A DNA stretch of 64,000 bases, from assembly GCF_900215325.1 (NCBI RefSeq), contig NZ_OCMS01000003.1, positions 1 through 64,000 of the forward strand, in the 5' to 3' direction. Every line of letters starts with the position of its first letter. Positions within the stretch are counted from its first letter, which is position 1. A program made the position numbers and the translations under genes. The DNA is from Fibrobacter sp. UWB16 (GTDB taxonomy: Bacteria > Fibrobacterota > Fibrobacteria > Fibrobacterales > Fibrobacteraceae). Of the stretch, positions 9,528-23,906 are shown in pieces. A model generated the notes under the pieces. The model made no database searches and was not told where the DNA came from. It worked only from the letters and a program-made list of their open reading frames with translations.

Positions 9528-9728
9528 ATGCCTGAATTTTATTTACAAAGGGTGTTGATAGATGTTGAAAGTCTATTGGAAATTTGAAGTTTTTTGTAGT
9601 AATTTCGTGATAATTTGTTGCCAAACGTATCTTTTTTATTTACATTGTCCAAAAAATTGCGCATTTCTGGCAAATGTGGGTTCGCCAGAAATGTCGTTTG
9701 TCATTTGGAACCCGCAAGGTTGAATGGA

Positions 9729-10868
9729 ATGAAACTGATTCTCAAGACTCTTGCTGCAGGACTTTTCGCCTTCTCGATGGCGAATGCTCAGGATGATGTC
9801 CCTGCCGATGCCGCTTTGGCCCCTGCTTCTGACAAGCCGACGATGGCTAGAAGCGAACTCCCGGTGGGCGCCGATATTTCTAACCGTTACCTCGAACGCG
9901 TTTTCTACCACTGGAAGGACAATAAGGAAAAGGGCATCATCAAGGTGTTCATCCACACGGATGAACTTGCCGAAGAACGCGAACCGGATGTCTTGAACTA
10001 CGACGTGCTTTATAGGGATGCCGACAGCAATGTCGTCTTCTGGAAGGACCATGTTGCAAAGTGCGTCAAGTGCTTTGGTAAGCCGGTTGTCGATGGCCCG
10101 ACCCCGAATACCCCGAAGGCTCTCGTGTATGACTGGGATCCGAAGAAGATCGACGATACCACCAAGACGATGCTCGAAGGCGAATTGCCGGCTGAAGTCT
10201 ACATGATCACGAAGGACAACGATATCAGAAATCTCAAGTCCCGCTGGATTGGCCCGTCTGACAAGGAACAGGGTGAAAGCGAATTCGTGCGCGCTTACCG
10301 CTTTGGCTCCATCATGAAGTATAACGACAAGAACGCTTTTGCGATGGCTTTCGTTTACAAGAAGGGCGGCAAGTTCTTCTATGTGCCGGAAGGATACGGC
10401 TATATCGACCAGGGTGTTTACAAGGGCGTTGCTTTCCCGGAAAAGTTCTACGAAGTTGAAGTGACTGACTTCAAGGAAATCGTGGGCAAGTCTCCGATCG
10501 AAGAAGTCCAGGATGCTATCAAGCGTGGCCCGACTCCGGTCAAGATGGCTGACCTCCCGAAGCAGACCTGGAAGGGTCCGAAGATTGAAAAGGAACTCAA
10601 GGCTCTCGTGAAGGGCTACAAGATCAAGAAGCTCATCATCACGAGCGACTCTTGGGAATACCGCAGAAACTTCTTCGGCTTTGTCCTTTACAGATGGGTC
10701 GGATTTGACATTGTCTATGACGGCAAGAACAAGGACGGCAAGAAGGCTACCATGTACAAGTCTGGCTTTATTGCAAAGCAGATGAGCAATGGCAGCGGCT
10801 TTGATAAGAAATTGATCATGACGGGTTCTCCGGTTTCTTGGAACCGCGAAGTTCTCGACTGGAAGTAA
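9729..10868 (+). CDS. Exported protein of unknown function
   Basis: I do not recognise the family. The start was placed at the ATG at 9729 rather than upstream because the protein then opens with a clean signal peptide (MKLILKTLAAG, cleavage after ANA near residue 20). That leaves a mature protein of about 360 residues. The mature part is soluble, Lys-rich and has no transmembrane segment. The middle has two nearby Cys (KCVKCFGK) that could form a disulfide or bind metal. The C-terminal third (TSDSWEYRRNFFGFVLYRWVGF and later) is rich in aromatic and basic residues. C-ending codons dominate, as in highly expressed genes of this genome. TATCTTTT at 9628-9635 is a promoter candidate. The gene has its own terminator and stands alone. 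Confidence 0.75.
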   Translation: MKLILKTLAAGLFAFSMANAQDDVPADAALAPASDKPTMARSELPVGADISNRYLERVFYHWKDNKEKGIIKVFIHTDELAEEREPDVLNYDVLYRDADSNVVFWKDHVAKCVKCFGKPVVDGPTPNTPKALVYDWDPKKIDDTTKTMLEGELPAEVYMITKDNDIRNLKSRWIGPSDKEQGESEFVRAYRFGSIMKYNDKNAFAMAFVYKKGGKFFYVPEGYGYIDQGVYKGVAFPEKFYEVEVTDFKEIVGKSPIEEVQDAIKRGPTPVKMADLPKQTWKGPKIEKELKALVKGYKIKKLIITSDSWEYRRNFFGFVLYRWVGFDIVYDGKNKDGKKATMYKSGFIAKQMSNGSGFDKKLIMTGSPVSWNREVLDWK

Positions 10869-10890
10869 TCTCGCTCTGCTGAGTTTAGGT

Positions 10891-10924
10891 GCGGCTCCCA
10901 TTAGCGTGGGGGGCGCTTTTTTTT
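10891..10924 (+). terminator. Terminator after the exported protein gene
   Basis: GCGGCTCCC (10891-10899) pairs with GGGGGGCGC (10908-10916) with one mismatch, followed by an 8-T tract. It overlaps any 5' extension of the ABC-F reading frame, which argues for the later GTG start. Confidence 0.65.
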
Positions 10925-10931
10925 ATCTTTG
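10924..10931 (+). promoter_or_regulatory. TAnnTTTG promoter element 5 nt before a GTG start
   Basis: TATCTTTG followed by ATTTC and the GTG start. No Shine-Dalgarno could fit, so a leaderless transcript is inferred. Confidence 0.55.
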
Positions 10932-10936
10932 ATTTC

Positions 10937-12823
10937 GTGATTCAAATTCAGAACGTCTCTAAGTCTTTTGGCATGCAGGTCCTTTTGGATAACGCTAGCA
11001 TGCTTGTTGCCGACCATGAACGCGTCGGTCTTGTTGGTCGCAATGGTTGCGGCAAATCGACCCTTTTCAAGATGATTCTCGGGCAGGAATGTCTCGATGG
11101 CGGTAACATCGACATCCCGAAGGGTTATACGATTGGCTATTTGCAGCAGCACATCAAGTTCACGCACCCGACGGTTCACGAAGAAGCGTGCAGCGTGCTC
11201 AAGGTGAATGAGGACGGCTGGCTCGAAGAACACAAGGTCGAGGCGATTCTCTTTGGTCTTGGCTTTGACGAAGAGAGCATGCAGAAAGACCCGATGCTTT
11301 TGTCGGGCGGTTTCCAGATCCGTCTGAATTTGGCGAAGGTTTTGGCGTCGGAACCGGACATGCTTTTGCTGGACGAACCGACGAACTACTTGGACATTGT
11401 TTCTATGCGTTGGCTCAGCCGCTTTTTGCGCGCGTGGAAGGGCGAAGTGCTCTTGATTACGCATGACCACCATTTTATGGACGAGGTCTGCACGCATACG
11501 GTGGGGATTCACCGCCACAAGATGCGCAAGGTCAAGGGGACGGTCGAAAAGTTGCGCGAGACGATTGCCGAAGAAGAAGAAGTGGCGATGCGCACGCAAG
11601 AAAACGAGCAGCGCAAAAAGGAACAGCTCGAGCGTGTCATCGAACGTTTCCGCTACAAGGCGGCGAAAGCTGCGATGGTGCAGTCAAAGATTAAGGCTGC
11701 GGCAAAGCTTGCAACGGGTGAGCGCCTCTCGCACGAACGCAACCTAGATTTCAATTTCAAGAATGCAGAATTCCCGGGCAAGCGCATGCTCCAGATTCAT
11801 GGGCTGCACTTTGCGTACAAGAACGAAAACGGTTACGGTCCGGAGCTGATTTCGGACCTCGAGATGGAAGTGTTCAAGGGTGATCGCATTGCGATTATCG
11901 GCCCGAACGGTCGTGGTAAAACGACGCTCTTGAACTTGATTGCGAAAGAATTTGAACCGACCCAGGGTACAATCAATTACAACCCGAACCTCAAGATAAA
12001 TTACTTTGGACAGACGAACATCAACCGCCTGAATCTTGAAAATACGGTCGAAGAAGAAATTGCAAGTGCGATTGCGGATGTGTCGCAGAAGAGCCGTGCG
12101 CGTAGCCTTGCTGGCGTGATGATGTTCAGCGGCGACACCGCTATGAAGAAGGTCAAGGTGCTTTCGGGTGGTGAACGTAGCCGTGTGCTTTTGGGCAAGA
12201 TTTTGGCGAACGAAAGCAATATGCTTTTGCTCGACGAACCGACGAACCACTTGGATATGGAAAGCATCGAGAGCTTGATCGATGCGCTCGAAGATTACGA
12301 TGGCACCGCACTTGTCGTGACGCATGACGAAGAACTGCTGCACGCTTTTGCGACGCGCCTCATCGTCTTCGACGGTGGTAAGTGCCGTATCTTCGAAGGC
12401 ACTTACGCGGACTTCCTTGAAAAGGTTGGCTGGGCTTCTGAAAAGAAGCCGGGCGGCGCGAACTCCGCAAACATCAAGGTCTCGAATATCGACGTCACGG
12501 ACGACAAACCCGTGAGTTCGACGCCGCGCACCAAGGAAGACCGCAGGGCGCGAGCAGACTACATTGCCGAACGCAGCAAGGTCATTAAGCCGCTCGAAAA
12601 AGAGACCGCGCGCCTCGAAGCAGAAATCGCGAAGGCAGAAGCTCTCGGCGGTGAACTTGAAGCAAAGCTTGTGGCCGCTTCGGAATCTGGCGACGGCAAT
12701 GCGATTACGTCCATTGCAAAGGACATGGACGAAAACAAGAAGCTGACCGAAGAACTTTACGCCGCTTGGGAAAAGGCAAGTGCTGAACTCGAAGCCGCGA
12801 AAGACAAGTATAAATTAGACTAG
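10937..12823 (+). CDS. ABC-F family ATPase (ribosome-associated type)
   Basis: A 628-residue soluble tandem ATPase. The first domain has Walker A GRNGCGKST, signature LSGGFQIRLNLAK and Walker B LLLDEPTNYLD. After the ABC-F linker (long charged helices, about residues 200-270) comes a second domain with GPNGRGKTT, LSGGERSRVLLGK and LLLDEPTNHLD. The C-terminal ~100 residues are a charged coiled coil. There is no membrane domain, so it is not a transporter. ABC-F proteins act at the ribosomal E site as translation factors or antibiotic-protection proteins. The subgroup (YheS/YdiF-like) is not certain. The GTG at 10937 was chosen because the conserved fold starts there (VIQIQNVSKSFG) and upstream codons run through a terminator. 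It lacks a Shine-Dalgarno. Confidence 0.92.
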   Translation: MIQIQNVSKSFGMQVLLDNASMLVADHERVGLVGRNGCGKSTLFKMILGQECLDGGNIDIPKGYTIGYLQQHIKFTHPTVHEEACSVLKVNEDGWLEEHKVEAILFGLGFDEESMQKDPMLLSGGFQIRLNLAKVLASEPDMLLLDEPTNYLDIVSMRWLSRFLRAWKGEVLLITHDHHFMDEVCTHTVGIHRHKMRKVKGTVEKLRETIAEEEEVAMRTQENEQRKKEQLERVIERFRYKAAKAAMVQSKIKAAAKLATGERLSHERNLDFNFKNAEFPGKRMLQIHGLHFAYKNENGYGPELISDLEMEVFKGDRIAIIGPNGRGKTTLLNLIAKEFEPTQGTINYNPNLKINYFGQTNINRLNLENTVEEEIASAIADVSQKSRARSLAGVMMFSGDTAMKKVKVLSGGERSRVLLGKILANESNMLLLDEPTNHLDMESIESLIDALEDYDGTALVVTHDEELLHAFATRLIVFDGGKCRIFEGTYADFLEKVGWASEKKPGGANSANIKVSNIDVTDDKPVSSTPRTKEDRRARADYIAERSKVIKPLEKETARLEAEIAKAEALGGELEAKLVAASESGDGNAITSIAKDMDENKKLTEELYAAWEKASAELEAAKDKYKLD

Positions 12824-12933: not shown

Positions 12934-12941
12934 AGTTAAGT

Positions 12942-13034
12942 CTACTCCACGCGTTTGCGCGGGGTAAGCGTCATCCCGTTGCTACGGTAGTATTGAATGT
13001 CCGTAAGGACTTGGCCCACCCAATAATGCTTTTG
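12942..13034 (-). pseudogene. 30-codon C-terminal stump of the LT-like gene
   Basis: Read on the minus strand this gives QKHYWVGQVLTDIQYYRSNG, then MTLTPRKRVE and a stop. It is the C-terminus of the gene at 22956-23906, which ends MTLVPRKRAE. Bases 12967-13034 are identical to 22981-23048 (68 of 68). Beyond 13035 all similarity stops abruptly. On the other side the last eight codons plus the stop are diverged but codon-aligned (T/V and V/A changes, silent differences). There is no start or body, so it is a fragment. Together with the intact copy it brackets the AT-rich block 13035-22980. Confidence 0.9.
12967..13034. repeat. 68-bp direct repeat, left copy (candidate attachment site)
   Basis: Identical in the same orientation to 22981-23048. 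Homology ends sharply at 13035 on the inner side. The arrangement is what site-specific insertion at the 3' end of a gene leaves behind. No recombinase gene was found between the copies, so the mechanism is inference. Confidence 0.8.
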
Positions 13035-13232
13035 AGTTTTTTTGTTTTGAATTTTAATAACGTTTGCTAAAATGAATTTGTTTTTGATAGTTTGAATGGA
13101 AATTTGCTAGAAATTTAATTGTTATATTTTGTAAAAATAAGTTTGTAATAAATGATTTCTTGTTGACAAGATAAAATAATGTTATTATTTTATGATGTTA
13201 TTAATTTGTAATGTTAAAATGAGGTTTATGAA
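13035..13232 (+). promoter_or_regulatory. AT-rich leader of the island operon
   Basis: About 200 bases of very AT-rich sequence with no gene begin right after the 68-bp repeat. TATATTTT near 13125 is the best match to the TAnnTTTG element. GAGG stands ~8 nt before the ATG at 13233. Confidence 0.4.
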
Positions 13233-16200
13233 ATGAAATTGTGTGTGTTGCAATTTTCTAAATGTTGTAAATCAATTCTTAGGAATTTGATAATGCTGAT
13301 GGTCTTGACGGCGATGACGAAATCTTTTGCCGTTGATTTCCCGTATTCCGAATGGTCCCTTGCTATGTATGAAGGGGCTTATGCTACTATTAGCGGTGGG
13401 ACAGTCTCTGTTTCCTATGGTGGCTATGATTATTGGCATGTTCAATTGACTCGTAGAAATATTGAATTGCAAGACGGTAAGACTTATGAGCTGAAATTCT
13501 TTTTGCAGGGCGTTGGAGAAAGGAAAAATACCGAAATTCGAATTGGTAGAGATGGCGCTCCATATGATGCTTTCGCTGAATTTGGTGAAATTGCAGCAAC
13601 AGTTAATGGTCGTGTTATAACCAAAACATTTAAAATGGAGTCTGGTAACGTTGATGATGCGCGGCTTGAGTTTAATCTAGGAAAGGGATCCGGCACGGTT
13701 TATTTTTCTGACGTCAGTTTAACTTGCCTTGATTGCGGCTCCAATCCTCAAAATACTATAGGAAGTGATCTTGCTGTAGGTTTCAATGATATTTTGGATT
13801 ATACTGTTATAGCCGATGAAGTTGATTTTCGCCCTTATTCCATGGCTTTAGGGGATATCTTTGGAGCGAAACTTCTGTTGGGCGCAGATTCGAAAATTTA
13901 TGGAAATGTAGATGCGTCGAATGAATGCGCATTGTACGAAAGAGCTTATATGGAGGGAGATTTGCAATATGGCAATCCCTGTATGGAACAGAATTATGTT
14001 GTTGTTTCGTCGAAGAAAAAGACTTCTTTGGTGAAACCGGTTGTTGCTCTTCCCGAATTTTCCGCTGGTGTAGAGCCGATTTCCGTTAATTTGGATGAAT
14101 CTGTGATTCTTCCTCCAGGAAATTATGGAACGTTTTATGCCAATGCGAGATCAAAGGTGTCATTTTCGTCTGGATCCTATACCTTCCAGAGCTTTTTTAC
14201 GGAACCCGATGCTCAATTCACGTTTGATATGACTTCTGGTCCTGTGTCCATTGCTGTAGCGGGAAATGTTCGTTTTGGCGATAGAAATCGCTTTGCAATT
14301 ATCGGTGGCGGTCCGAATGAAATATCTTGGAAAATTGCTGGAACTTCTGTGAATTTTGGAACGGATGGCCTGTATTTTGGTTCGATAATAGCTCCGGCTG
14401 CGTATGTTAATGTTCCGTCTCGTTCTCATTTGGTGGGGGGGGTGTATGCGAATAAATTCAGGATTGAACCTCAATCAACTGTTTCGCGGCAGCCACGTAT
14501 AGATGAAATTTCCCATAGCGAAGAACATTTTGGTCCATTCTTTGAATCTGGGATTTATCGTTATCGTTCTGTATTGCCTACGAACGCTGAATCTGTGGAG
14601 ATGTATGTGTACTCAAAGAATTCAAATGTGAAAATTAATGGAGGCGATTCTAAAGTTATTGATCTTTCCTCGTCTAATACAACAGTGAATATATCGGTTT
14701 CTCGTGATATGATTTCGGGCTTCCCGGTTGAGGCGTTTAGCAGCAATTACAAATTTGAATTTGTGAAGAACTCAAATTATCGTGTTTATTGGAATCCGCA
14801 GACTCCGTGTAAGGATGGGTGCGATGGTTCTACTGTTGCAACAGCAATCGGCGATTTTGAAACAGTTCTTGAAATTGCAAAGACTACTGGCCGTGAAATC
14901 AATATGGCTGGTGGTACATGGAATGCTGCTGCAAAGTATAGTGATGGCGTTGTTCCTTGGAAGGTTGGCTTTGAATTGGTTGGTTATAAGGGAAATATTT
15001 GGGATTTGAATTCTGAGAGTGATTTGCCTCTTATTAATCTTGGTGAAACATCCCGTATTGAAATTGAAGGACGTTCGCCGCGTAGTTTGGTAGGCGTGCG
15101 GATTACAAACGGATTTAATGTGGGCAATGGTGGTGCTGTTAGTGCGGATAACGAAAAGCTTACGGTTAATAATGTTATAATCTCTGATGCGAAATCACAT
15201 GGCGATGGCGGCGCGTTGTATGCTGCTGGTGTTTTGAACCTTGAAAATGCCAGATTCTCTGGTAATGCCGCTTTAGGCGATGGTGGTGCGGTTGTAGTTA
15301 ATGGCGAAACAAATATGCTCAATGTGATTTTTACGGGAAATCTTTCTGGTAAAAATGCTGGTGCCGTTGAACTTGTTGCTGGTAATACCTATATCGGTAA
15401 TGCGATATTCCATAACAACCACGCTGCTTTGGATGGCGGCGCGATAAACAACGAATCTGCGACATTAAATCTTTGGAATTCGACATTCTTTGCCAATGTT
15501 GCTATGGTTTCGAATCCCGCCATTGGTGGTAATGCAAATGGAACTATTGGGAATAGTATTTTTTGGAAGAATGCTACGCCGAGTTGCGCTCCTGGCGAAT
15601 GTGCTGGTGAAGTTGTTAACGGTTATCATGTCTTGAATTCATCATTGTCTAAGACGTATTCTGGTTGGGGTGAGTTTATTTATTCAGGAGATCCGAAATT
15701 TGTTGACGAAGCAAATTTTGCGGGCGAAAATATGTTTATGGGGTATGATGCTGGAATTAACCTTTCAAATGAATCGCATTTAGTGAGTGCTGGTACGAAA
15801 AATGTGAATGTTCCTCTAGCTGATATTATTGGTTCTGATCGTGAACTTAGTAGTATTCCGTTGGGGCCGTATGGATGGACGTTAAAAGAAGGAGGGGAAT
15901 CTTTTATAGGGACTCTTGGGGTTGATGGTAAAGTCCAAACTATAAAACCGGCTATTCCGTTGATTGATGAAATAACTGGTGATTGGTATAGGAATTATTT
16001 GGCAAAGTCGCCTTATGCGCGTGTAATGAAATTTTCTGTAAGAAAGCACAGTAAAACAAATCTTTCTGAGGCAAATGTGACGTTGTGGGTGAAAGATGTT
16101 AATGGCTCGAAACGAACAGATGTTAAGCCTATTCGCTTTAAAGTATATCGTGTTGGTGATGAAAATGGGAAATACGTATTCCAAACTATGACGCAAACAA

Positions 16201-16316
16201 AAGGAAAGCCAATTGTTTTTTCGAGACGTCCAGAAGATGCTAAAAATTATGAAAATGTAATTGTAATTTGTATGAAAGAATTATCGGATTTTTTTCATAT
16301 AGAAGCTTCAAAATAA
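13233..16316 (+). CDS. Large secreted beta-helix surface protein
   Basis: 1027 residues. A long signal peptide (about 33 residues, ending TKSFA) is followed by a jelly-roll region (~34-160) resembling CBM4/9-type carbohydrate-binding or galactose-binding folds, seen in alternating strands around YDYWHVQLTRRNIELQDG. Residues ~170-420 form a beta-rich region of unknown family with PGNYGTFYANARSKVSFSSG. Residues ~620-770 are a right-handed parallel beta-helix. This part repeats GNGGAV, GDGGAL, GDGGAV and DGGAIN and resembles Chlamydia-type polymorphic outer-membrane repeats. A C-terminal ~200-residue tail is unassigned. It is the first gene of a tight operon (9-10 bp gaps) with a metzincin-like lipoprotein and a SUMF1-fold protein. 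Codon use is more AT-rich than the flanking housekeeping genes. A surface binding role is inferred. Confidence 0.8.
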   Translation: MKLCVLQFSKCCKSILRNLIMLMVLTAMTKSFAVDFPYSEWSLAMYEGAYATISGGTVSVSYGGYDYWHVQLTRRNIELQDGKTYELKFFLQGVGERKNTEIRIGRDGAPYDAFAEFGEIAATVNGRVITKTFKMESGNVDDARLEFNLGKGSGTVYFSDVSLTCLDCGSNPQNTIGSDLAVGFNDILDYTVIADEVDFRPYSMALGDIFGAKLLLGADSKIYGNVDASNECALYERAYMEGDLQYGNPCMEQNYVVVSSKKKTSLVKPVVALPEFSAGVEPISVNLDESVILPPGNYGTFYANARSKVSFSSGSYTFQSFFTEPDAQFTFDMTSGPVSIAVAGNVRFGDRNRFAIIGGGPNEISWKIAGTSVNFGTDGLYFGSIIAPAAYVNVPSRSHLVGGVYANKFRIEPQSTVSRQPRIDEISHSEEHFGPFFESGIYRYRSVLPTNAESVEMYVYSKNSNVKINGGDSKVIDLSSSNTTVNISVSRDMISGFPVEAFSSNYKFEFVKNSNYRVYWNPQTPCKDGCDGSTVATAIGDFETVLEIAKTTGREINMAGGTWNAAAKYSDGVVPWKVGFELVGYKGNIWDLNSESDLPLINLGETSRIEIEGRSPRSLVGVRITNGFNVGNGGAVSADNEKLTVNNVIISDAKSHGDGGALYAAGVLNLENARFSGNAALGDGGAVVVNGETNMLNVIFTGNLSGKNAGAVELVAGNTYIGNAIFHNNHAALDGGAINNESATLNLWNSTFFANVAMVSNPAIGGNANGTIGNSIFWKNATPSCAPGECAGEVVNGYHVLNSSLSKTYSGWGEFIYSGDPKFVDEANFAGENMFMGYDAGINLSNESHLVSAGTKNVNVPLADIIGSDRELSSIPLGPYGWTLKEGGESFIGTLGVDGKVQTIKPAIPLIDEITGDWYRNYLAKSPYARVMKFSVRKHSKTNLSEANVTLWVKDVNGSKRTDVKPIRFKVYRVGDENGKYVFQTMTQTKGKPIVFSRRPEDAKNYENVIVICMKELSDFFHIEASK

Positions 16317-16325
16317 GGAGATCTT

Positions 16326-18191
16326 ATGTTTGTTAAAATTATATTGTCTGTTATAACAGCTTTGTTGTGTATTGCTTGTTCTGATAAAAAAGTTACGAGT
16401 GATGTTGATTCAACTGAGGAGACTGCAAAATGTAGGGAAAACTATGATCCGGCAAAATGTGAAGATATTGTATTTGTAAATTGTCATGAGCTTTCTGCAG
16501 TTGATCCAGAATATTGTGATTTCGATGATTTTGAGTCTGATTATGTTCCTGGTGGAACCATGTCTAAAGAAGAATTATTTAAAGAATATCCTAATATTTT
16601 GGCGGAGTCTCATGCAGAAGGCTCTGTAATTGGCTTTACTTGGCAAAATACGCTTCCATGGTATTATAGATCCAAAGAACATAAGTATGGGTTTGATAAA
16701 GACCCAATGTCTAATTGGCCTGATTACATTGAAGCAGGAAAGGATGTTTATGTTTCGGTTGCTAAAGGGGAAGTTGCTAAAGTTAAATTAAAGGTCCCTT
16801 CTGAATATTCAAAAATATCTTTAGTGAATAAAGATGGTGTTAAAATGTGTTCAGGAAGTACATGTGATGGAGATGTGTCTTTGGATGCGGGTGATTATAA
16901 ACTTATGGATGGTAATAATGATCTTGACAGAAATTTACATGTGATAGCGTATGAAAAAAAAGGACCTTATGAAATAACGTATGTTCAGTTTGATGGCGAA
17001 GATGGATCTTCGTGTTTGGGAGAGGCTGGATGTTATGAAAGAAATACACTGCAGACTAAAATGAATGAAGTTTTTTCACAAGCTGTTATGAGCGTGAATC
17101 TCAAAGAAATAAAACCATCTGAAATAGGTCTTGAAAGTTTATTAGAGTTTGATATGACTGATGGTGGAGATGATGCGATTTATAAAACATTGCGAGATAA
17201 AATATTGCTTCGAAATCCTATGTTTAAGGAATTTAATGAAGCTAGATTTAGGTATGATGAATCAAAAAATAATTGCGAAAAATATAAAGAAGAAGGAAAT
17301 GCTGCCTATCAGGATGCTTGGTGTAAGCAATATGAAGAAGATAAATTGATTTATAAGAAAAAAAGTGAAGCAGCTGTAAAGAATCCGGTAAGAGCGGTTG
17401 TTGGTATAAATAGTTTTAGACTTATTTGGAAATTAAAAAATCAAAAAAATTCAAATGAGCTGAGTTTTCCGAAAAGTCAAGAAGCTTTTTATACAGCGTA
17501 TAAAAATCTTTATGGGAATGGTTTTGGTAAAGGTGCTGAATTGCCTGTGTTTTTAAAAAGTTATTCGAATAAATGCTCAGGAGGTGCTGGTGAAAAACCT
17601 GTGCCTGTTGTTCTAAAATTTTTAAATGGACCTGATCCTATTGTGGTTTCGTTGCTCGGACAATCTGGTGAACCAATTTCGTTTAGTTCAGATTGTGATT
17701 ATTTGTATGTTGATACTTATGCATTCCTTCCTGGTATGCAAAATAAAGCGCAAGTAACTTATCCTTATAGAAATGATGATGACGAACTTGTCGGTGCGGT
17801 ATCTATAGCTCCTCGTAGGGTGGGAGAGTCATCTTTAAATACGCTTATTCATGAAGTTGGTCATCAGTTTGATTTGTCTGATTTGTATATAGATGGGGGG
17901 GATCCGTCTGTGCCTTATTGTATGGAAATGAGTGAAGATGGTAAATTTATATATAAGGAAGAACGTCAGCTTATTGGGGGACAATATTGGATGAGATATT
18001 TGTTTACAAAAGAAAAATGTAGTTTTATAACATCAGAGGCAAATCTTATGAATCATGAGGTTCCGACTGGTCCAAAATTAAGATATAGACCGATGCCAAT
18101 TGTTGAAACGAGCACAAATGATCGTATTGGAACGTTTGATTCTCAGTGGGAATGTCTGCAAAATGCAAATTGCGGTAGGTATAGTGAATAA
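16326..18191 (+). CDS. Metzincin-like zinc metalloprotease lipoprotein
   Basis: 621 residues, preceded by AAGGAGA. The signal peptide ends LLCIAC, giving a lipidated Cys18 with an unusual Cys at -3. An N-terminal beta-rich part (about 80-230) could be a bacterial pre-peptidase-like domain (DVYVSVAKGEVAKVKLKVP). The catalytic motif is HEVGHQFDLSD at 509-519. It fits HExxHxxxxxD, with H509, H513 and D519 as zinc ligands and E510 as catalyst. ANLMNHE further on is a plausible Met-turn. The usual Gly of HExxHxxG is replaced by Asp, so it is a divergent member. Cys residues scattered through the mature part fit an extracytoplasmic location. The substrate is unknown. It lies 9 bp downstream of the beta-helix gene and is strongly AT-rich (15 G/C in the 60 bases from 16321). 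Confidence 0.75.
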   Translation: MFVKIILSVITALLCIACSDKKVTSDVDSTEETAKCRENYDPAKCEDIVFVNCHELSAVDPEYCDFDDFESDYVPGGTMSKEELFKEYPNILAESHAEGSVIGFTWQNTLPWYYRSKEHKYGFDKDPMSNWPDYIEAGKDVYVSVAKGEVAKVKLKVPSEYSKISLVNKDGVKMCSGSTCDGDVSLDAGDYKLMDGNNDLDRNLHVIAYEKKGPYEITYVQFDGEDGSSCLGEAGCYERNTLQTKMNEVFSQAVMSVNLKEIKPSEIGLESLLEFDMTDGGDDAIYKTLRDKILLRNPMFKEFNEARFRYDESKNNCEKYKEEGNAAYQDAWCKQYEEDKLIYKKKSEAAVKNPVRAVVGINSFRLIWKLKNQKNSNELSFPKSQEAFYTAYKNLYGNGFGKGAELPVFLKSYSNKCSGGAGEKPVPVVLKFLNGPDPIVVSLLGQSGEPISFSSDCDYLYVDTYAFLPGMQNKAQVTYPYRNDDDELVGAVSIAPRRVGESSLNTLIHEVGHQFDLSDLYIDGGDPSVPYCMEMSEDGKFIYKEERQLIGGQYWMRYLFTKEKCSFITSEANLMNHEVPTGPKLRYRPMPIVETSTNDRIGTFDSQWECLQNANCGRYSE

Positions 18192-18201
18192 GGAGTAAAA
18201 G

Positions 18202-19623
18202 ATGAAAAAGAATATTGTTATTAGTATTTTCCTTTTGCCAATAGTTCTTTTGGCTGCAGATTATTCCATTTTTGGTCTCGATGGGAAAAAAATTGGAAAT
18301 GAGGATTGTTTAGAAAAAACAGAATGTGTTTCTTCTGCTCGATCGAAATATTCAAAAGCAATCGTTATTGTTGGTGATTCGCAAAAAAGTTTTTCATCAA
18401 AAACTTTGTCTCGATCAATACAAAACGATGACTCCTTTAAAATATCCCTACGGGATTCTATTTCGTGGGTCGAAGTAGAGAAAAATACGATGGTTTCGTT
18501 ATGTGTAGATGATGCAAATGGTGGTCGTTGGTTTATTTACGATTTATCGTATAGTTCTCCGAATGATTCTTGTGTGTTATTTGATTCTGGCAAGTTTGTT
18601 AAGTCTTCGCAGATTCGTTATGTTTCAAAAACAGGAAAAAAACAGATTGTGAATATTCTTGTTGGGATGAGACGAATCGATTTGTCCAAATCTATGCATG
18701 AAATCGGTTTTTATGGCAAGGAATATTCTTTGAAGAAGAATGTTATATATACTGATGAACGAAAAAATATGAATAATAGAGAGTATCCAGATCCAGTAAG
18801 GGATACGTCTATAAAAGAAATTCTTGCTGTTGATAAATATTTGGTAACGAATTGTGAAATAATTTACGGGTTATGGGATTCAATACCAAGTTATTCCCGT
18901 GCTAAAGATAAAATTCCTTTAGAGTATCATAATTATTGGATTGGGAAAAAGAAGAACATGCAAAAAAATGGAATTTGCGATACGCATGATTCAGCGGCAG
19001 TTAGAGTATATTTGTATGATGCTTTGGTTTATGCTAATGCTCGTAGTATTCGTGATGGATTAAAGCCTGTATATAAATTAAAAAAAATAAAACAAAAAAA
19101 ATATTTACCTAAGTTGTATAAAGATGGTAGTTTTGATGTTGCTACAACAAGTTTTTTCGAAACATACGAAAACTCAGATGAAGGGTGGATTCGTGTTGAA
19201 ATAGATGATAATGCTGATGGTTATCGTCTTCCTTACTATAATGAATGGATGACTTTGGCTAAAGCTGGAAATAAAAAGTCAAAGTATATTTGGGGAAATA
19301 GTGAAAATTCTACTTTGGCCTCTGAATATGCGTGGTTTGGCGAAGGTGTTATGATTTCTGAAAAGTACGGTGTCTATGATCAAGAGTCTCGCCCAGTTGG
19401 AATGAAGAAGCCAAATGATTATGGACTTTATGATATGATGGGCCTTGTGTGTGAAAATGTAATGTTGCCGGGAAAGAGTATTTTTGGAAACGAAATAACT
19501 TCTTGTAAGGGTGGTTTTTTATATGATTCCTTGCAGGCTTTGAATTTTGGTGCCCATGCTAATAATTATGTTGGTGGCTATGGTAAGTATCAAGGTTTAA
19601 GGCTTGTCCGCCTATTAAAATAG
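18202..19623 (+). CDS. SUMF1/FGE-fold exported protein, probably non-catalytic
   Basis: 473 residues with a signal peptide (ending VLLAA near 19) and AAGGAG before the ATG. The N-terminal ~190 residues are unassigned and contain several Cys. The C-terminal ~270 residues match the formylglycine-generating-enzyme (SUMF1) fold: VDKYLVTNCE near 210, GYRLPYYNEW near 338, NDYGLYDMMG near 409 and the terminal GLRLVRLL. The paired active-site cysteines of true FGE, expected just before the GLRLVR end, are absent, so enzyme activity is unlikely. Proteins with this lectin-like fold often serve as binding modules. It is the third gene of the operon after the beta-helix protein and the metalloprotease, with a 10-bp gap. 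Confidence 0.75.
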   Translation: MKKNIVISIFLLPIVLLAADYSIFGLDGKKIGNEDCLEKTECVSSARSKYSKAIVIVGDSQKSFSSKTLSRSIQNDDSFKISLRDSISWVEVEKNTMVSLCVDDANGGRWFIYDLSYSSPNDSCVLFDSGKFVKSSQIRYVSKTGKKQIVNILVGMRRIDLSKSMHEIGFYGKEYSLKKNVIYTDERKNMNNREYPDPVRDTSIKEILAVDKYLVTNCEIIYGLWDSIPSYSRAKDKIPLEYHNYWIGKKKNMQKNGICDTHDSAAVRVYLYDALVYANARSIRDGLKPVYKLKKIKQKKYLPKLYKDGSFDVATTSFFETYENSDEGWIRVEIDDNADGYRLPYYNEWMTLAKAGNKKSKYIWGNSENSTLASEYAWFGEGVMISEKYGVYDQESRPVGMKKPNDYGLYDMMGLVCENVMLPGKSIFGNEITSCKGGFLYDSLQALNFGAHANNYVGGYGKYQGLRLVRLLK

Positions 19624-19645
19624 ACGCTTGATTAGAAAAGTTTTT

Positions 19646-19665
19646 CCCTCAGTTATTGCTGAGGG
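19646..19665. terminator. Hairpin ending the three-gene operon
   Basis: CCCTCAG-ttattg-CTGAGGG is a perfect 7-bp stem 23 bp after the SUMF1-like gene. A T-run precedes it and the following sequence is T-rich but interrupted, so terminator strength is uncertain. Confidence 0.55.
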
Positions 19666-19689
19666 ATTATGTTATTTCGTAAGTAATAG

Positions 19690-19697
19690 TATATTTG
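19690..19697 (+). promoter_or_regulatory. TAnnTTTG promoter element
   Basis: TATATTTG, 30 nt before the ATG at 19728, with a separate AGGAG ribosome site between. This is a conventional leader, unlike the leaderless cases. Confidence 0.5.
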
Positions 19698-19727
19698 GAA
19701 AGTCCTATTATTAGGAGATGGAGTTGA

Positions 19728-20963
19728 ATGAAATTTAGGAAAAATACATGCATATTTTTAGTGTCTCTTTTGTATTGGGCTTGTACTGAATCTGGTATTG
19801 ATGCTGAAGAACGAAATCCTTCTGTTAAAGGTTATTTTTTTATCACTCCTAATGTCCATCAATTAAGTGATTCTCTTGATGAACGGATTACGAAAGAGGG
19901 GGTGAGAACGCGAATTACATCTGGCGGTAGATACTCCCTTGTTGCTTATAGTGATTCTGTTGATGTTGAACCAGTGCTTTTCGTTGATAGCATTGAATGC
20001 TGCGAAACGGGATGCTCTGGTCATCGAGAGGGGAATCGTTTCTTATTTGAATTTTCGTGTGAATTAAATGAACCTGCTCATGCTATTTTGCATTTAAAAG
20101 ATGTGGGTGGAAATTTTTTGGATTATTCTTTTTATAATGTGAGTTTGGTTGGTGTGGGTGATTATTCAGATCATTTATCATTGAATTTGATTGTTGCAGG
20201 AGCTTTTGATAGCACCGCAGATGGTAAATCAGTTGATAGTCTTGCAAGGGCTATTGGACAATCTATTCATAATTATTTTGATATTCAAGTAGATACGGTT
20301 TATATTTCTTATGCGTATGAACATCCTTCTGTGGGGTATATGTTTACGAAGGATTCAGTTATGTATGTAGGCTCATCGCGTATTATAGATTCATTAAGTG
20401 AACCATGGGGTGAGTCTGGAAAAGATGGTGCGTTTGATATAGTTTTAGTCGATTATATAGATAGTGTTAGAGCGGGATATGCTTATAGATTTTTTTACCA
20501 AAGCTCTTTGAATTTGGATGTGTCGGTTGTTGCTTTTCGTGGTTCAGATGGCCTTGCTCGTGGTTCAAAAACTATTCAAAATGTGTCGGTGCATGAAATT
20601 GGCCATGTTTTGGGGCTGTCTCATACGACGCTGACTATGAAAGAGCTGTTGGCGTGGGGCGATTATTCAGTTTATGAAGATGGTTTAGAAGATACGCCCT
20701 ATTGTCAGAAATATGTAGATAAATATAAAGATAGTTTGAAATTAAAAGGCTTAGGAAAGCGTTGTTTTGATATTGAAGATCCTTTGGATTGGGCTTTGTT
20801 GGATAGTACTTATAAAACAGATTCGTTAGTAGTTCTTTGGACTGGTTGTCCTGATTATTTCAACATTATGTATCCTTATGAAGGCGGTGAATATGATTAT
20901 TTAGAATCTTCCCCGATGCAGCGCGAAATTTTCAAAAAAAACCTGACGCTTATTCCGCATTGA
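19728..20963 (+). CDS. Metzincin metalloprotease lipoprotein
   Basis: 411 residues. The signal peptide ends LYWAC, giving a putative lipid-anchored Cys with a relaxed lipobox. The zinc site HEIGHVLGLSH at 289-299 is the full metzincin HExxHxxGxxH motif. FNIMYPY supplies the Met-turn (Met381), followed by SPMQREIF as in many bacterial and archaeal metzincins. Residues ~30-140 are a beta-rich N-terminal domain with a Cys cluster (SIECCETGCSGH). It probably cleaves proteins outside the cell, and the substrate is unknown. AGGAG precedes the ATG. It is the second metzincin-type lipoprotein in the same AT-rich block, unrelated in overall sequence to the one at 16326. Confidence 0.85.
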   Translation: MKFRKNTCIFLVSLLYWACTESGIDAEERNPSVKGYFFITPNVHQLSDSLDERITKEGVRTRITSGGRYSLVAYSDSVDVEPVLFVDSIECCETGCSGHREGNRFLFEFSCELNEPAHAILHLKDVGGNFLDYSFYNVSLVGVGDYSDHLSLNLIVAGAFDSTADGKSVDSLARAIGQSIHNYFDIQVDTVYISYAYEHPSVGYMFTKDSVMYVGSSRIIDSLSEPWGESGKDGAFDIVLVDYIDSVRAGYAYRFFYQSSLNLDVSVVAFRGSDGLARGSKTIQNVSVHEIGHVLGLSHTTLTMKELLAWGDYSVYEDGLEDTPYCQKYVDKYKDSLKLKGLGKRCFDIEDPLDWALLDSTYKTDSLVVLWTGCPDYFNIMYPYEGGEYDYLESSPMQREIFKKNLTLIPH

Positions 20964-21055
20964 TTCCGTTTTCGCTTGAAAAACTTTTTATTTGATATAT
21001 CTGTAATTTTCTTAATTTTTTTTATATTTAGTACAAATGTTTTTAATGAGTATAA

Positions 21056-21976
21056 ATGAAGCTCTTATTCTATTTTAGTTTGCTTTTTACTTTACTTTTT
21101 GTGGCTTGCGATGATGAATCTAGCAATCCATTTGTTGCGAATGAAAATTCGTCATCCTTGATCCCAATTGGGGCTCTTTCTAGCAGTAGCAATGGAAATC
21201 CCGGCTCAATGGTCGGAGGGACAAGTAGCAGCCTTATGGATTCCGCTGTTTCTTCGAGTTCATCAAAAGATAAATTGTCTTCTTCTGTTGTTAAAAGCAG
21301 TAGTTCACTTCGGATGAGTTCTGCAAGTTTATCTTCTGGCAGTAATCGCAAAGCTTCTATCAGTTCTTCGAGCGTCCAGAATGAGAAATCATCTTCATCA
21401 GAAAAGAATGATGCGGTGACAGGAACCATGACGGATGAACGTGACGGGCAGACTTACAAGATTGTGAAAATTGGACACTTGTGGTGGTTTGCACAAAATC
21501 TCAATTACGAAACAGTGGATAGTCACTGCTATAACGATTCTGCTGAGTATTGTGCGAAATATGGACGGCTTTATAAATGGGCGGCTGCTGTTGGCAAGTC
21601 GGAAGATGAGTGCGGATATAGACATGAATGTAATCTTACGTTACCGGTGCAGGGGGCTTGCCCGCCGGGATGGCGTGTTCCGTCAAATTACGATTGGAAC
21701 GATTTGATTGTTGCTGCTGGTGGCGATGAGATTGCAGGCGAAGTGTTGAGAGAATCGAAAGAAGGCGGTTTTGCATTGCTTTATGCGGGGCGAATAAATT
21801 TTGCTGGTGAATTTGTTCAAGAAGGACGGAGTGCATGTATTTGGACTTCTAGCGAGACTGACGAATATGACGCATATTATGCGGACTTTTACTATTCTTA
21901 TAGCAAAGTGATTTTCCCTAATGATGCCGAAAAGTATGATGGCTATTCCGTTCGCTGCGTAAAGGGAGAACTATAG
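21056..21976 (+). CDS. FISUMP-domain lipoprotein
   Basis: 306 residues. The signal peptide ends LLFVAC (Cys18). Residues ~30-125 are a Ser-rich low-complexity linker (SSSS runs). Residues ~130-306 are the Fibrobacter succinogenes major paralogous domain: DGQTYKIVKIGHLWWFAQNL, four or more Cys, CPPGWRVPSNYDWNDL and the terminal YSVRCVKGEL. The domain is a large lineage-specific family of surface lipoproteins whose function is not established. TATATTTA at 21023-21030 may be its promoter. No clear Shine-Dalgarno was seen. It lies inside the AT-rich island, although its own codon use is closer to the host. Confidence 0.9.
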   Translation: MKLLFYFSLLFTLLFVACDDESSNPFVANENSSSLIPIGALSSSSNGNPGSMVGGTSSSLMDSAVSSSSSKDKLSSSVVKSSSSLRMSSASLSSGSNRKASISSSSVQNEKSSSSEKNDAVTGTMTDERDGQTYKIVKIGHLWWFAQNLNYETVDSHCYNDSAEYCAKYGRLYKWAAAVGKSEDECGYRHECNLTLPVQGACPPGWRVPSNYDWNDLIVAAGGDEIAGEVLRESKEGGFALLYAGRINFAGEFVQEGRSACIWTSSETDEYDAYYADFYYSYSKVIFPNDAEKYDGYSVRCVKGEL

Positions 21977-22027
21977 GAAAAATTTTAAATTATATTCATA
22001 AATGAACGATTAAAAAGGAGGAGAGAA

Positions 22028-22954
22028 ATGAATTTTTTGAGGATTGCGGCGACGTTAGGATGTCTTCTTTGTGTTGCTTGTTCGGACAGCGGAAAGTCAA
22101 ATCCGTCAAGCAGTGTGGTGAACGATGCGGATAAATCCAATATAGTGTATTCCTACGTGAAGGTGAAAAATTATAATAGCGGGCCTTATGCTGTTGATAC
22201 GTTTACGATTGCGTCGAGATATTTCAATTGCGATATTCAAGACTCGAATTTTGAATGCCGGTACATTGATTTTTGTCATGAAAAGCGCAATGAAAAATTT
22301 CCTATCGATGCGGATACGGTTCGTTTGAATTATGGTGAAAATCGGGTATCGAATTTTTCGTTCGAAGTTGAAGTTCCTAAAATTGATATGGTCGCATTGC
22401 GAAAATTTTTTGCAGAGCTTCGTTTGCCTCCATGTGCTGTGTTGAAGGATTCCGTCTTTTCGAATTACTCGTTCGAGGCGAAAGGCTTGCCTGAAAACAT
22501 ATCTTTGATGAGTGAAAAAATTGAAGGCTTTGATTGGATTTCAAAACATACAATGGATTCGATAAACGCTTCGTCGGAGAATAGCGTGGCTTTAATTCGT
22601 GCGGATAGATGCGCGGAGGAACGGTTCCCGCCTGATTCTATAAAGTTGTTTGCAAAATGTGAAGCGAGAAGTTCATGTAAAATGCCGGTTGTATATACTG
22701 CATCTGTGAAAGAGAATCCACCTAAGGTATGTTATACAAAGATTGATAAAAAAACAGGAATCGAAGAAGATGTTGGAACCGTCGATGGTTACTTGAAAAT
22801 GACCAAAGATGTTTTGATGGGTGGGTACTATACTCTTGTGAATACTCGAACGGAACCGTTTGTTTCTGATACAACGGTCAATTGGACGTTGATTTACGTT
22901 GATCAATATGGTCGCAGGGATTCTCTAGCGATGACGACCGTATTAAAAAAATAA
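22028..22954 (+). CDS. Lipoprotein of unknown function
   Basis: 308 residues. The signal peptide ends LLCVAC (Cys18), followed by a Ser/Asn spacer. AAAAAGGAGGAGAG gives a strong ribosome site. The mature part contains about nine Cys, mostly in two groups, and ends in alternating hydrophobic strands (TVNWTLIYVDQYGRRDSLAM), which suggests an Ig-like or other beta-sandwich domain. I do not recognise a family. It is the last gene of the AT-rich block, and its stop is one base from the convergent LT-like gene's stop. Confidence 0.75.
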   Translation: MNFLRIAATLGCLLCVACSDSGKSNPSSSVVNDADKSNIVYSYVKVKNYNSGPYAVDTFTIASRYFNCDIQDSNFECRYIDFCHEKRNEKFPIDADTVRLNYGENRVSNFSFEVEVPKIDMVALRKFFAELRLPPCAVLKDSVFSNYSFEAKGLPENISLMSEKIEGFDWISKHTMDSINASSENSVALIRADRCAEERFPPDSIKLFAKCEARSSCKMPVVYTASVKENPPKVCYTKIDKKTGIEEDVGTVDGYLKMTKDVLMGGYYTLVNTRTEPFVSDTTVNWTLIYVDQYGRRDSLAMTTVLKK

Positions 22955-22955
22955 T

Positions 22956-23906
22956 CTATTCCGCTCTTTTACGCGGCACGAGCGTCATCCCGTTGCTACG
23001 GTAGTATTGAATGTCCGTAAGGACTTGGCCCACCCAATAATGCTTTTGCGGGTCCTTGCGCCAGTTCTCGAATTTGTTGCGATGCTCTGTGTCGGGGTAG
23101 AATTGTGCGACCGCGTCGGCGAGCGTGGGTGATGTCGCGAGAACTTTTTTGAGGCGGCGGGCGCCTATATCAATTTGTTCTAAACCCTTTCCTGTATCGA
23201 GCGCTAAGAGTCCTGACGTGTTGTTTTTGCCCTGATAGTTCATCTGGAATCCGGAAGTGTGATGGATGATGGACATGAGAACGGCAGGATCCGTGCGTTC
23301 GCGGAGGCATGCTTCAAGCACAGGCAAGTTGCAAAGGTGTTCGCTGTCCCAGCGCTTTCCGTTGTATGTGATTTTCAGCGTGTGGTCCGTGTCTTCGGAA
23401 TTGATTTCGATATCGTAGCGGATGCCGAGATCGCGTTGTAGCGCTTTTGTGAGGCGGATTCCCCTGTTCCTGAATTTTTTGTAGCCAATCATCTTTATCT
23501 GTAACGTGTCCTTGATGGATTCGAGAATCGGCGTTGTAGGGCGCGTGACAACGATATTGTAATTGTTGATGACGGTGGGGAGGATATAGGCGAGTTCTGC
23601 GGCCGCGCTGTCGAGATTGCAGTTCATGTCGATGATGAGCTCACCTTGGTCGCAGAGCTTTTGAATCGCGGACGTGGTGTACTTCTGGTATTCGAGCTTT
23701 TCATCAATTGTTGGGCGCGGGGATTCTTCGGGGTGCGTCGCATATGCGGTTGTGATGGCCGCGATCCCCAAGGCACAAGCGATGATGGTGAGTTTGACCT
23801 TGATGCTCCTCCAGAGAATGCGGATAACTGCACGACCTTTTTTAGTCATGCAGATGCATAGTAGCCAAATGACGGCGATGCCCGCCCAGAGGAGAATTAA
23901 GTTCAC
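22956..23906 (-). CDS. Membrane-anchored lytic-transglycosylase-like protein, catalytic Glu absent
   Basis: 316 residues from a GTG start 14 bp after the RavA-like gene. Two N-terminal hydrophobic segments (about 3-19 and 38-56) place the rest outside the inner membrane. Residues ~205-290 follow the Slt/MltE-like layout. VLMSIIHHTSGFQMN stands where lytic transglycosylases have IIxxESGF. It is followed by SGLLALD (usually GLMQLMP) and a helix with DIGARRLKKVLA (usually NxxxGxxYLxxLL). The catalytic Glu is Thr217, so it may bind rather than cleave glycan chains. The assignment is from motif layout only. Its last 23 codons overlap the 68-bp direct repeat, and a second copy of the C-terminus lies at 12942. 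Confidence 0.6.
   Translation of the reverse strand: MNLILLWAGIAVIWLLCICMTKKGRAVIRILWRSIKVKLTIIACALGIAAITTAYATHPEESPRPTIDEKLEYQKYTTSAIQKLCDQGELIIDMNCNLDSAAAELAYILPTVINNYNIVVTRPTTPILESIKDTLQIKMIGYKKFRNRGIRLTKALQRDLGIRYDIEINSEDTDHTLKITYNGKRWDSEHLCNLPVLEACLRERTDPAVLMSIIHHTSGFQMNYQGKNNTSGLLALDTGKGLEQIDIGARRLKKVLATSPTLADAVAQFYPDTEHRNKFENWRKDPQKHYWVGQVLTDIQYYRSNGMTLVPRKRAE
22981..23048. repeat. 68-bp direct repeat, right copy (candidate attachment site)
   Basis: Identical to 12967-13034, within the 3' end of the LT-like gene. The gene remains intact, as expected when an inserted element restores the 3' end of its target. Confidence 0.8.

Follow-up and report, generated by a model that had tools for sequence, protein, structure and literature searches.

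A six-gene surface-protein block between duplicated copies of a gene's 3′ end, at a locus of variable content in Fibrobacter

It is an open question how gene islands devoid of a recombinase get into bacterial chromosomes and out of them again, and mobility genes are absent from many hotspots of variable gene content. Hotspots that lack an MGE and have flanks undergoing recombination are common (PMC5635113). Cis-mobilizable elements (CIMEs) carry attL and attR sites, and no integrase (PMC5704250). In E. coli, the single crossover of a circularised linear DNA gives partial-gene duplications of 109-950 bp under laboratory selection (PMC3240628).

We report here on a locus of Fibrobacter sp. UWB16, contained in a stretch of 64,000 nucleotides (the window), that can be set against these three systems. 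Like the MGE-free hotspots (PMC5635113), it holds variable cargo between two conserved genes, with no mobility genes and with what may be signs of recombination in the flanks, but pieces of a neighbouring gene are duplicated at the cargo ends, and the breakpoints lie at the 3′ tip of this gene. As in a CIME, the 3′ end of a gene is present in two direct copies, one of which keeps the gene intact, and integrase and transfer genes are lacking; the difference is that no integrase relative was found, that there is no fixed core, and that unrelated repeats are present at other sites of the operon. With single-crossover integration, or homology-facilitated illegitimate recombination (PMC3240628), it shares the partial duplication of one gene end beside inserted DNA, but at 68-94 bp, in a natural and recurrent situation rather than under selection. 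The locus also permits us to separate the steps of the process, as it offers empty alleles, several cargos, stranded gene tails and a breakpoint confined to an 8-bp interval.

The two conserved genes are convergent. On the left is an ABC-F ATPase gene (10889..12823, plus strand; Pfam ABC_tran, E=1.5e-50), syntenic in close relatives. On the right, the gene we call the target gene (22956..23906, minus strand, 951 bp) encodes a conserved membrane-anchored protein to which no family could be assigned: it has no match in Pfam or NCBIfam and no significant one in PDB, so that the label 'LT-like' given to it by the original prediction is not confirmed and is still a guess. The ten residues that follow its YRSNG motif form a clade-specific tail, missing in distant orthologues.

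Direct comparison of the two stretches showed that positions 12967-13034 and 22981-23048 are identical over 68 bp and in direct orientation. This 68-mer has only these two copies in the whole 3.56-Mb genome. The right copy lies within the intact target gene (minus strand), at its 3′ end, and the left one in a displaced 3′ stump of the same gene (12941..13034, minus strand). Including the diverged tail, the repeat amounts to 94 bp at 90.4% identity (12941-13034 versus 22955-23048). Its last 26 bases contain 9 differences, all within 22959-22980, and the C-termini encoded by the two tails are nevertheless homologous, PRKRAE-stop in the gene and PRKRVE-stop in the stump. The perfect repeat, the intact minus-strand gene on the right, the displaced stump on the left and the diverged but codon-aligned ends had all been described correctly by the original prediction. 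Within 464 kb of this genome, no other pair of exact direct repeats of at least 60 bp has copies more than 3 kb apart; the remaining ones have a spacing of 0.1-2.5 kb, and mostly lie in tandem or adjacent paralogues. A dispersed-repeat artefact was dismissed, as the 68-mer is confined to the pair, and so was tRNA-borne integration, as no tRNA gene is found anywhere in the window. DNA folding of the 68-mer was unremarkable, and a candidate attB core formed by an inverted repeat (CCMCGCG-CAAA-CGCGTGG) was discarded for want of conservation across genomes. The stump is followed by TTAACTAGATTGCCGCG, which is a short intergenic repeat of its own, present in two copies.

The 10-kb block enclosed by the repeats consists of six genes, all on the plus strand. 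It starts with an AT-rich region 5′ of the first gene (13035..13232), and homology with two related genomes, G074 and G040, stops at this junction. Gene 1 (p13233, 13233..16316) encodes a secreted protein with a CBM_4_9 domain, a sub-cutoff match to DUF7305 and a GGAI-type repeat region. Gene 2 (p16326, 16326..18191) encodes a lipoprotein with the zincin motif HEVGHQFDLSD, which is kept in homologues that are just 23-29% identical. Gene 3 (p18202, 18202..19623) encodes a secreted protein with an FGE-sulfatase domain (PF03781, E=1.2e-13). The last three genes encode lipoproteins: one with the matrixin-like motif HEIGHVLGLSHT (gene 4, 19728..20963), one with a Fib_succ_major (FISUMP) domain (gene 5, 21056..21976), and one that is convergent with the target gene (gene 6, p22028, 22028..22954) and is a recently exchanged cassette common to G035, G040 and G086. 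As expected of an AT-rich block holding only extracytoplasmic proteins, its G+C content is 33-42%, compared to about 50% in the flanks, and a signal peptide or lipobox could be read from the sequence at the start of all 6 ORFs. No other repeat of at least 25 bp was found inside the block. Across homologous blocks, the proteins of genes 2-4 share 24-50% amino-acid identity, compared to 78-92% for the first and last genes, and the region 16326-20963 (two putative metalloproteases and the FGE-domain protein) is a diversifying surface module. The cargo includes putative surface proteases that diverge fast, in bacteria that are important degraders of fibre in the rumen. A segment of 630 bp in the Fib_succ_major gene (21355-21984) is 99.84% identical to G040 (L053:4087-4716), while the rest of the block is about 80% alike; this is either a short exchange of very recent date or an artefact of the MAG.

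The locus was compared in 16 close Fibrobacter genomes, including that of UWB16. In the 15 others, the target gene is present at 81-96% amino-acid identity, with the ABC-F gene downstream. Insertions at this place are polymorphic. The site is empty in 5 of the 16 (G022, G063, G084, G092 and G089), with a gap of 55-250 bp, and in G022 the alignment is continuous straight across it. The 11 remaining genomes, UWB16 included, contain between the two genes either the six-gene block or a small cargo, of which there are several unrelated kinds: a 0.9-kb cargo A in G088, G018, G025 and G069, a cargo B in G060 and G083, p22028 as sole cargo in G086 and G035, and the block or a close version of it in UWB16, G074 and G040. 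Strains without the block do exist, as had been predicted, and the case that would have spoken against a mobile origin, the same block in all relatives, did not occur, as most genomes have no block or a different cargo. Gene content thus differs among relatives at one locus from which mobility genes are absent, as in a hotspot. The trees of the target gene and of the ABC-F gene are in conflict for G089, and mosaic tracts are present at the locus as well.

The stump is not the only displaced tail. Tails of the target gene were found in the UWB16 and G074 blocks, at the end of cargo A in G069 (GCAAACGCGTAGAATAAACTTAACTAG, nearly identical to the tail of the UWB16 stump), and at the end of cargo B in G060 (CAAACGTCTAGAATAA). 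A degenerate motif for this tail matched at only 10 places when 80 genomes were scanned; 6 of them belong to this locus, and the 4 others lie in coding sequence that is unrelated. This means that the original gene end has been displaced under at least three cargo types. In G040, the block is present and the stump absent. The G074 stump (L058) is the same as that of UWB16, but extends about 15 bp further, and it differs from the G074 target gene at 5 positions over about 91 bp. Compared to these, the 68 exact bp of UWB16 imply a recent duplication or conversion in its lineage. The left stump junction is nearly the same in the two genomes, while their first block proteins differ by about 22%, which is compatible with either a single old event or a site-directed one. 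G074 also has a second copy of the block at another locus (L135, G074:C63), the first protein of which is 67% identical to that of UWB16.

A stump could in principle be what is left of a complete second gene, if the target gene had been duplicated and one copy deleted, with the island trapped between the two. The stump is indeed a genuine fragment of the target gene, but across the genus (111 genomes searched) the gene is present in a single copy per genome, and no full second copy was found in any of them, so that the duplicate gene that might have been expected in relatives is held by none. Only UWB16 and G074 have a second match, limited to the stump, and the two split matches seen in G055 are pieces of one gene. 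Moreover, the displaced tail is found alone in two unrelated cargos, and the empty alleles contain no extra copy. We consider this history very improbable.

To locate the breakpoints, tails and cargos were compared with those of relatives. The target genes of UWB16 and G035 are 81% identical, versus 98% for the last 25 bp together with p22028 (179 mismatches in 926 bp of gene, and 19 in 841 bp of tail and p22028, p=8e-34). The switch point falls within 22981-22988, between position 22980, the first difference between gene and stump, and position 22989, the last difference between gene and G035. As the gene tail matches G035 and not the stump, the stump carries the tail of the host and the gene a foreign one, which comprises the last 25 bp including the stop (22956..22980, minus strand) and travels with p22028. 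The suggestion that one tail came from the element and the other was original is borne out: the displaced tail is that of the host, and the gene-side tail arrived with the incoming DNA. A similar jump was seen for cargo A, which is 99% identical among three species whose target genes differ by about 11%: 5-8 mismatches were counted in 870 bp, compared to 97-105 in the adjoining 940 bp of gene, and the jump lies no more than about 9 bp from the stop. The most distant switch point is about 35 bp before the stop and the nearest under 9 bp, a spread of about 30 bp. To judge from these sequences, cargos have been exchanged recently between species, with the identity jump inside the last 35 bp of the gene. 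Breaks there would probably cost nothing, since the residues after YRSNG are absent in distant orthologues.

These positions bear on the possibility that ordinary double crossovers in the flanking core genes move the whole locus, the repeat being an incidental relic. Gene-content hotspots of such a type are common (PMC5635113), and the adjoining gap at 10868-10889 is variable too, without repeats. However, three recent transfers break in the last 35 bp of the 951-bp gene and not inside the flanks, and the origin of the stump is left unexplained, so that we regard this possibility as doubtful. The gap in question, which lies between the gene at 9615 and the ABC-F gene, is a second variable slot: G088, G025, G083 and G084 have there an insertion of 0.8-2.7 kb with a lipoprotein-like gene, and no duplicated gene tails were found at this slot.

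We then considered which recombinase might act at the site. As the original prediction had it, no integrase is present: no recombinase was found within the block or nearby. The UWB16 genome encodes four tyrosine recombinases (PF00589), all on other contigs and common to the clade, and no serine recombinase. No PF00589 protein was found near the target-gene site in UWB16 or in the 22 relatives searched, nor did any of the related operons at other loci of the genus turn out to carry a recombinase. No relatives were found among plasmids, phages or viral contigs, and a phage or plasmid origin was dismissed. A DNA transposon was rejected likewise, as there is no transposase among the block ORFs and no terminal inverted repeats or shared ends, and so was an integron cassette array, as the block has no further repeat of at least 25 bp that could be an attC site and no integrase is in or near the locus. 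Outside the window, a direct repeat of about 97 bp with complementary ends (GAAGATGTT...AACATCTTC) brackets one small acyltransferase-like gene (G000:C3:293384-293481 and 294702-294800; L160); it is attC-like or MITE-like, with a DNA fold z-score of only -1.8.

The original prediction was that of an integrative element inserted into the 3′ end of a gene. Part of it stands, namely the geometry, the preserved gene, the foreign tail on the gene side and the empty alleles; the integrase, a fixed core and related repeats at other sites are wanting. A decayed or trans-mobilised site-specific element, similar to a CIME, would have been inserted by a past tyrosine recombinase, with attL and attR remaining and the integrase lost or located elsewhere. 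The geometry together with the empty sites is in line with it, as are the reuse of one gene end by three or more cargo types, whose displaced tails start CAAACG, and the nearly identical left junction of two divergent blocks. Against it are the four clade-wide PF00589 proteins, none of them near the site, the lack of a serine recombinase and of plasmid, phage or viral relatives, crossovers scattered over about 30 bp, and the unrelated sequences that bracket the operon family elsewhere. Unrelated repeats and scattered crossovers both argue against one site-specific enzyme, and we hold such an element to be unlikely.

At least 13 Fibrobacter genomes have the core of the operon, p13233-p16326-p18202, at other loci. 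At 4 of 13 sites, that of UWB16 included, the operon family is bracketed by direct repeats of 61-104 bp, local in sequence and mutually unrelated. At the G059 site, the repeat is of 61/64 bp, with 61 bp exact, and is found in that genome only at the two edges of the block. The G039 site has a 104-bp repeat at 89% identity, and the G025/G060 site a repeat of about 80 bp at 80%, for which G086 provides the empty allele. In a random control, 3 of 400 segments of the UWB16 genome reached such a repeat level, giving a binomial p of about 2e-6 for 4 of 13 sites, with a control drawn from one genome and a count of independent sites that is our own. What is new here is this habit of the operon family of sitting between local repeats.

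Such repeats would be produced by an insertion with a long target-site duplication, if a transposition-like or repair process put the operon at any gene boundary and duplicated about 60-110 bp. The sequence-unrelated repeats at four sites, their rarity in the control and the empty allele in G086 are what this process would give, but no transposase, shared block ends or terminal inverted repeats were found at the block sites compared, several of these sites have no bracketing repeat, nor does G040 at the target-gene site, and paralogous gene ends or related promoters might account in part for the G039 and G025/G060 repeats. All in all, this process seems rather unlikely. We can offer only as a speculation that the widespread core operon is a mobile unit without a recombinase of its own, which would enter unrelated gene boundaries through a host or trans-acting system, duplicating about 60-110 bp of target and leaving both neighbours intact. 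As the operon family occupies unrelated sites, each bracketed copy having repeats particular to its site, one can test in Fibrobacter for a general route of insertion by which duplications are formed.

Since single-crossover duplications are known, recombinase-free hotspots are common and no site-specific enzyme is supported, we favour host recombination. The reading we prefer, tentatively and at somewhat less than an even chance, is that of a passive surface-protein cassette in a recombination hotspot, moved by a single crossover of a circularised fragment at a short gene end. The 3′ end of the target gene, at the gap that separates it from the convergent ABC-F gene, would be the slot of this hotspot, into which surface and lipoprotein cassettes enter and are swapped between Fibrobacter species. 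We infer that a fragment composed of the last ~100 bp of the gene and the operon would be taken up (UWB16 encodes a ComEC competence protein), would circularise, and would be integrated at the short gene end through one RecA-type crossover (Campbell integration), the cassette having no recombinase. The landing of the six-gene operon would duplicate 68-94 bp of the gene end, the intact copy staying with the gene and the other being stranded beside ABC-F. The two copies would later cross over or convert with each other and with other alleles, by which the gene tail and the last gene would be swapped and the 68 bp kept identical. That breakpoints gather in the last 35 bp would be due to the C-terminal tail being dispensable and to the incoming pieces carrying only that gene end. 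Against this route, 68-94 bp is short for a RecA crossover, and UWB16 and G074 have nearly the same left stump junction beside divergent blocks. Also, because the G059, G039 and G025/G060 repeats are each local in sequence, it would need a circle carrying local sequence at every site.

At the edge of the window (positions 1-131), the contigs of many relatives end at the start position of the window, with about 95-130 bp of common sequence, which suggests that a long repeat, for example an rRNA operon, lies just outside.
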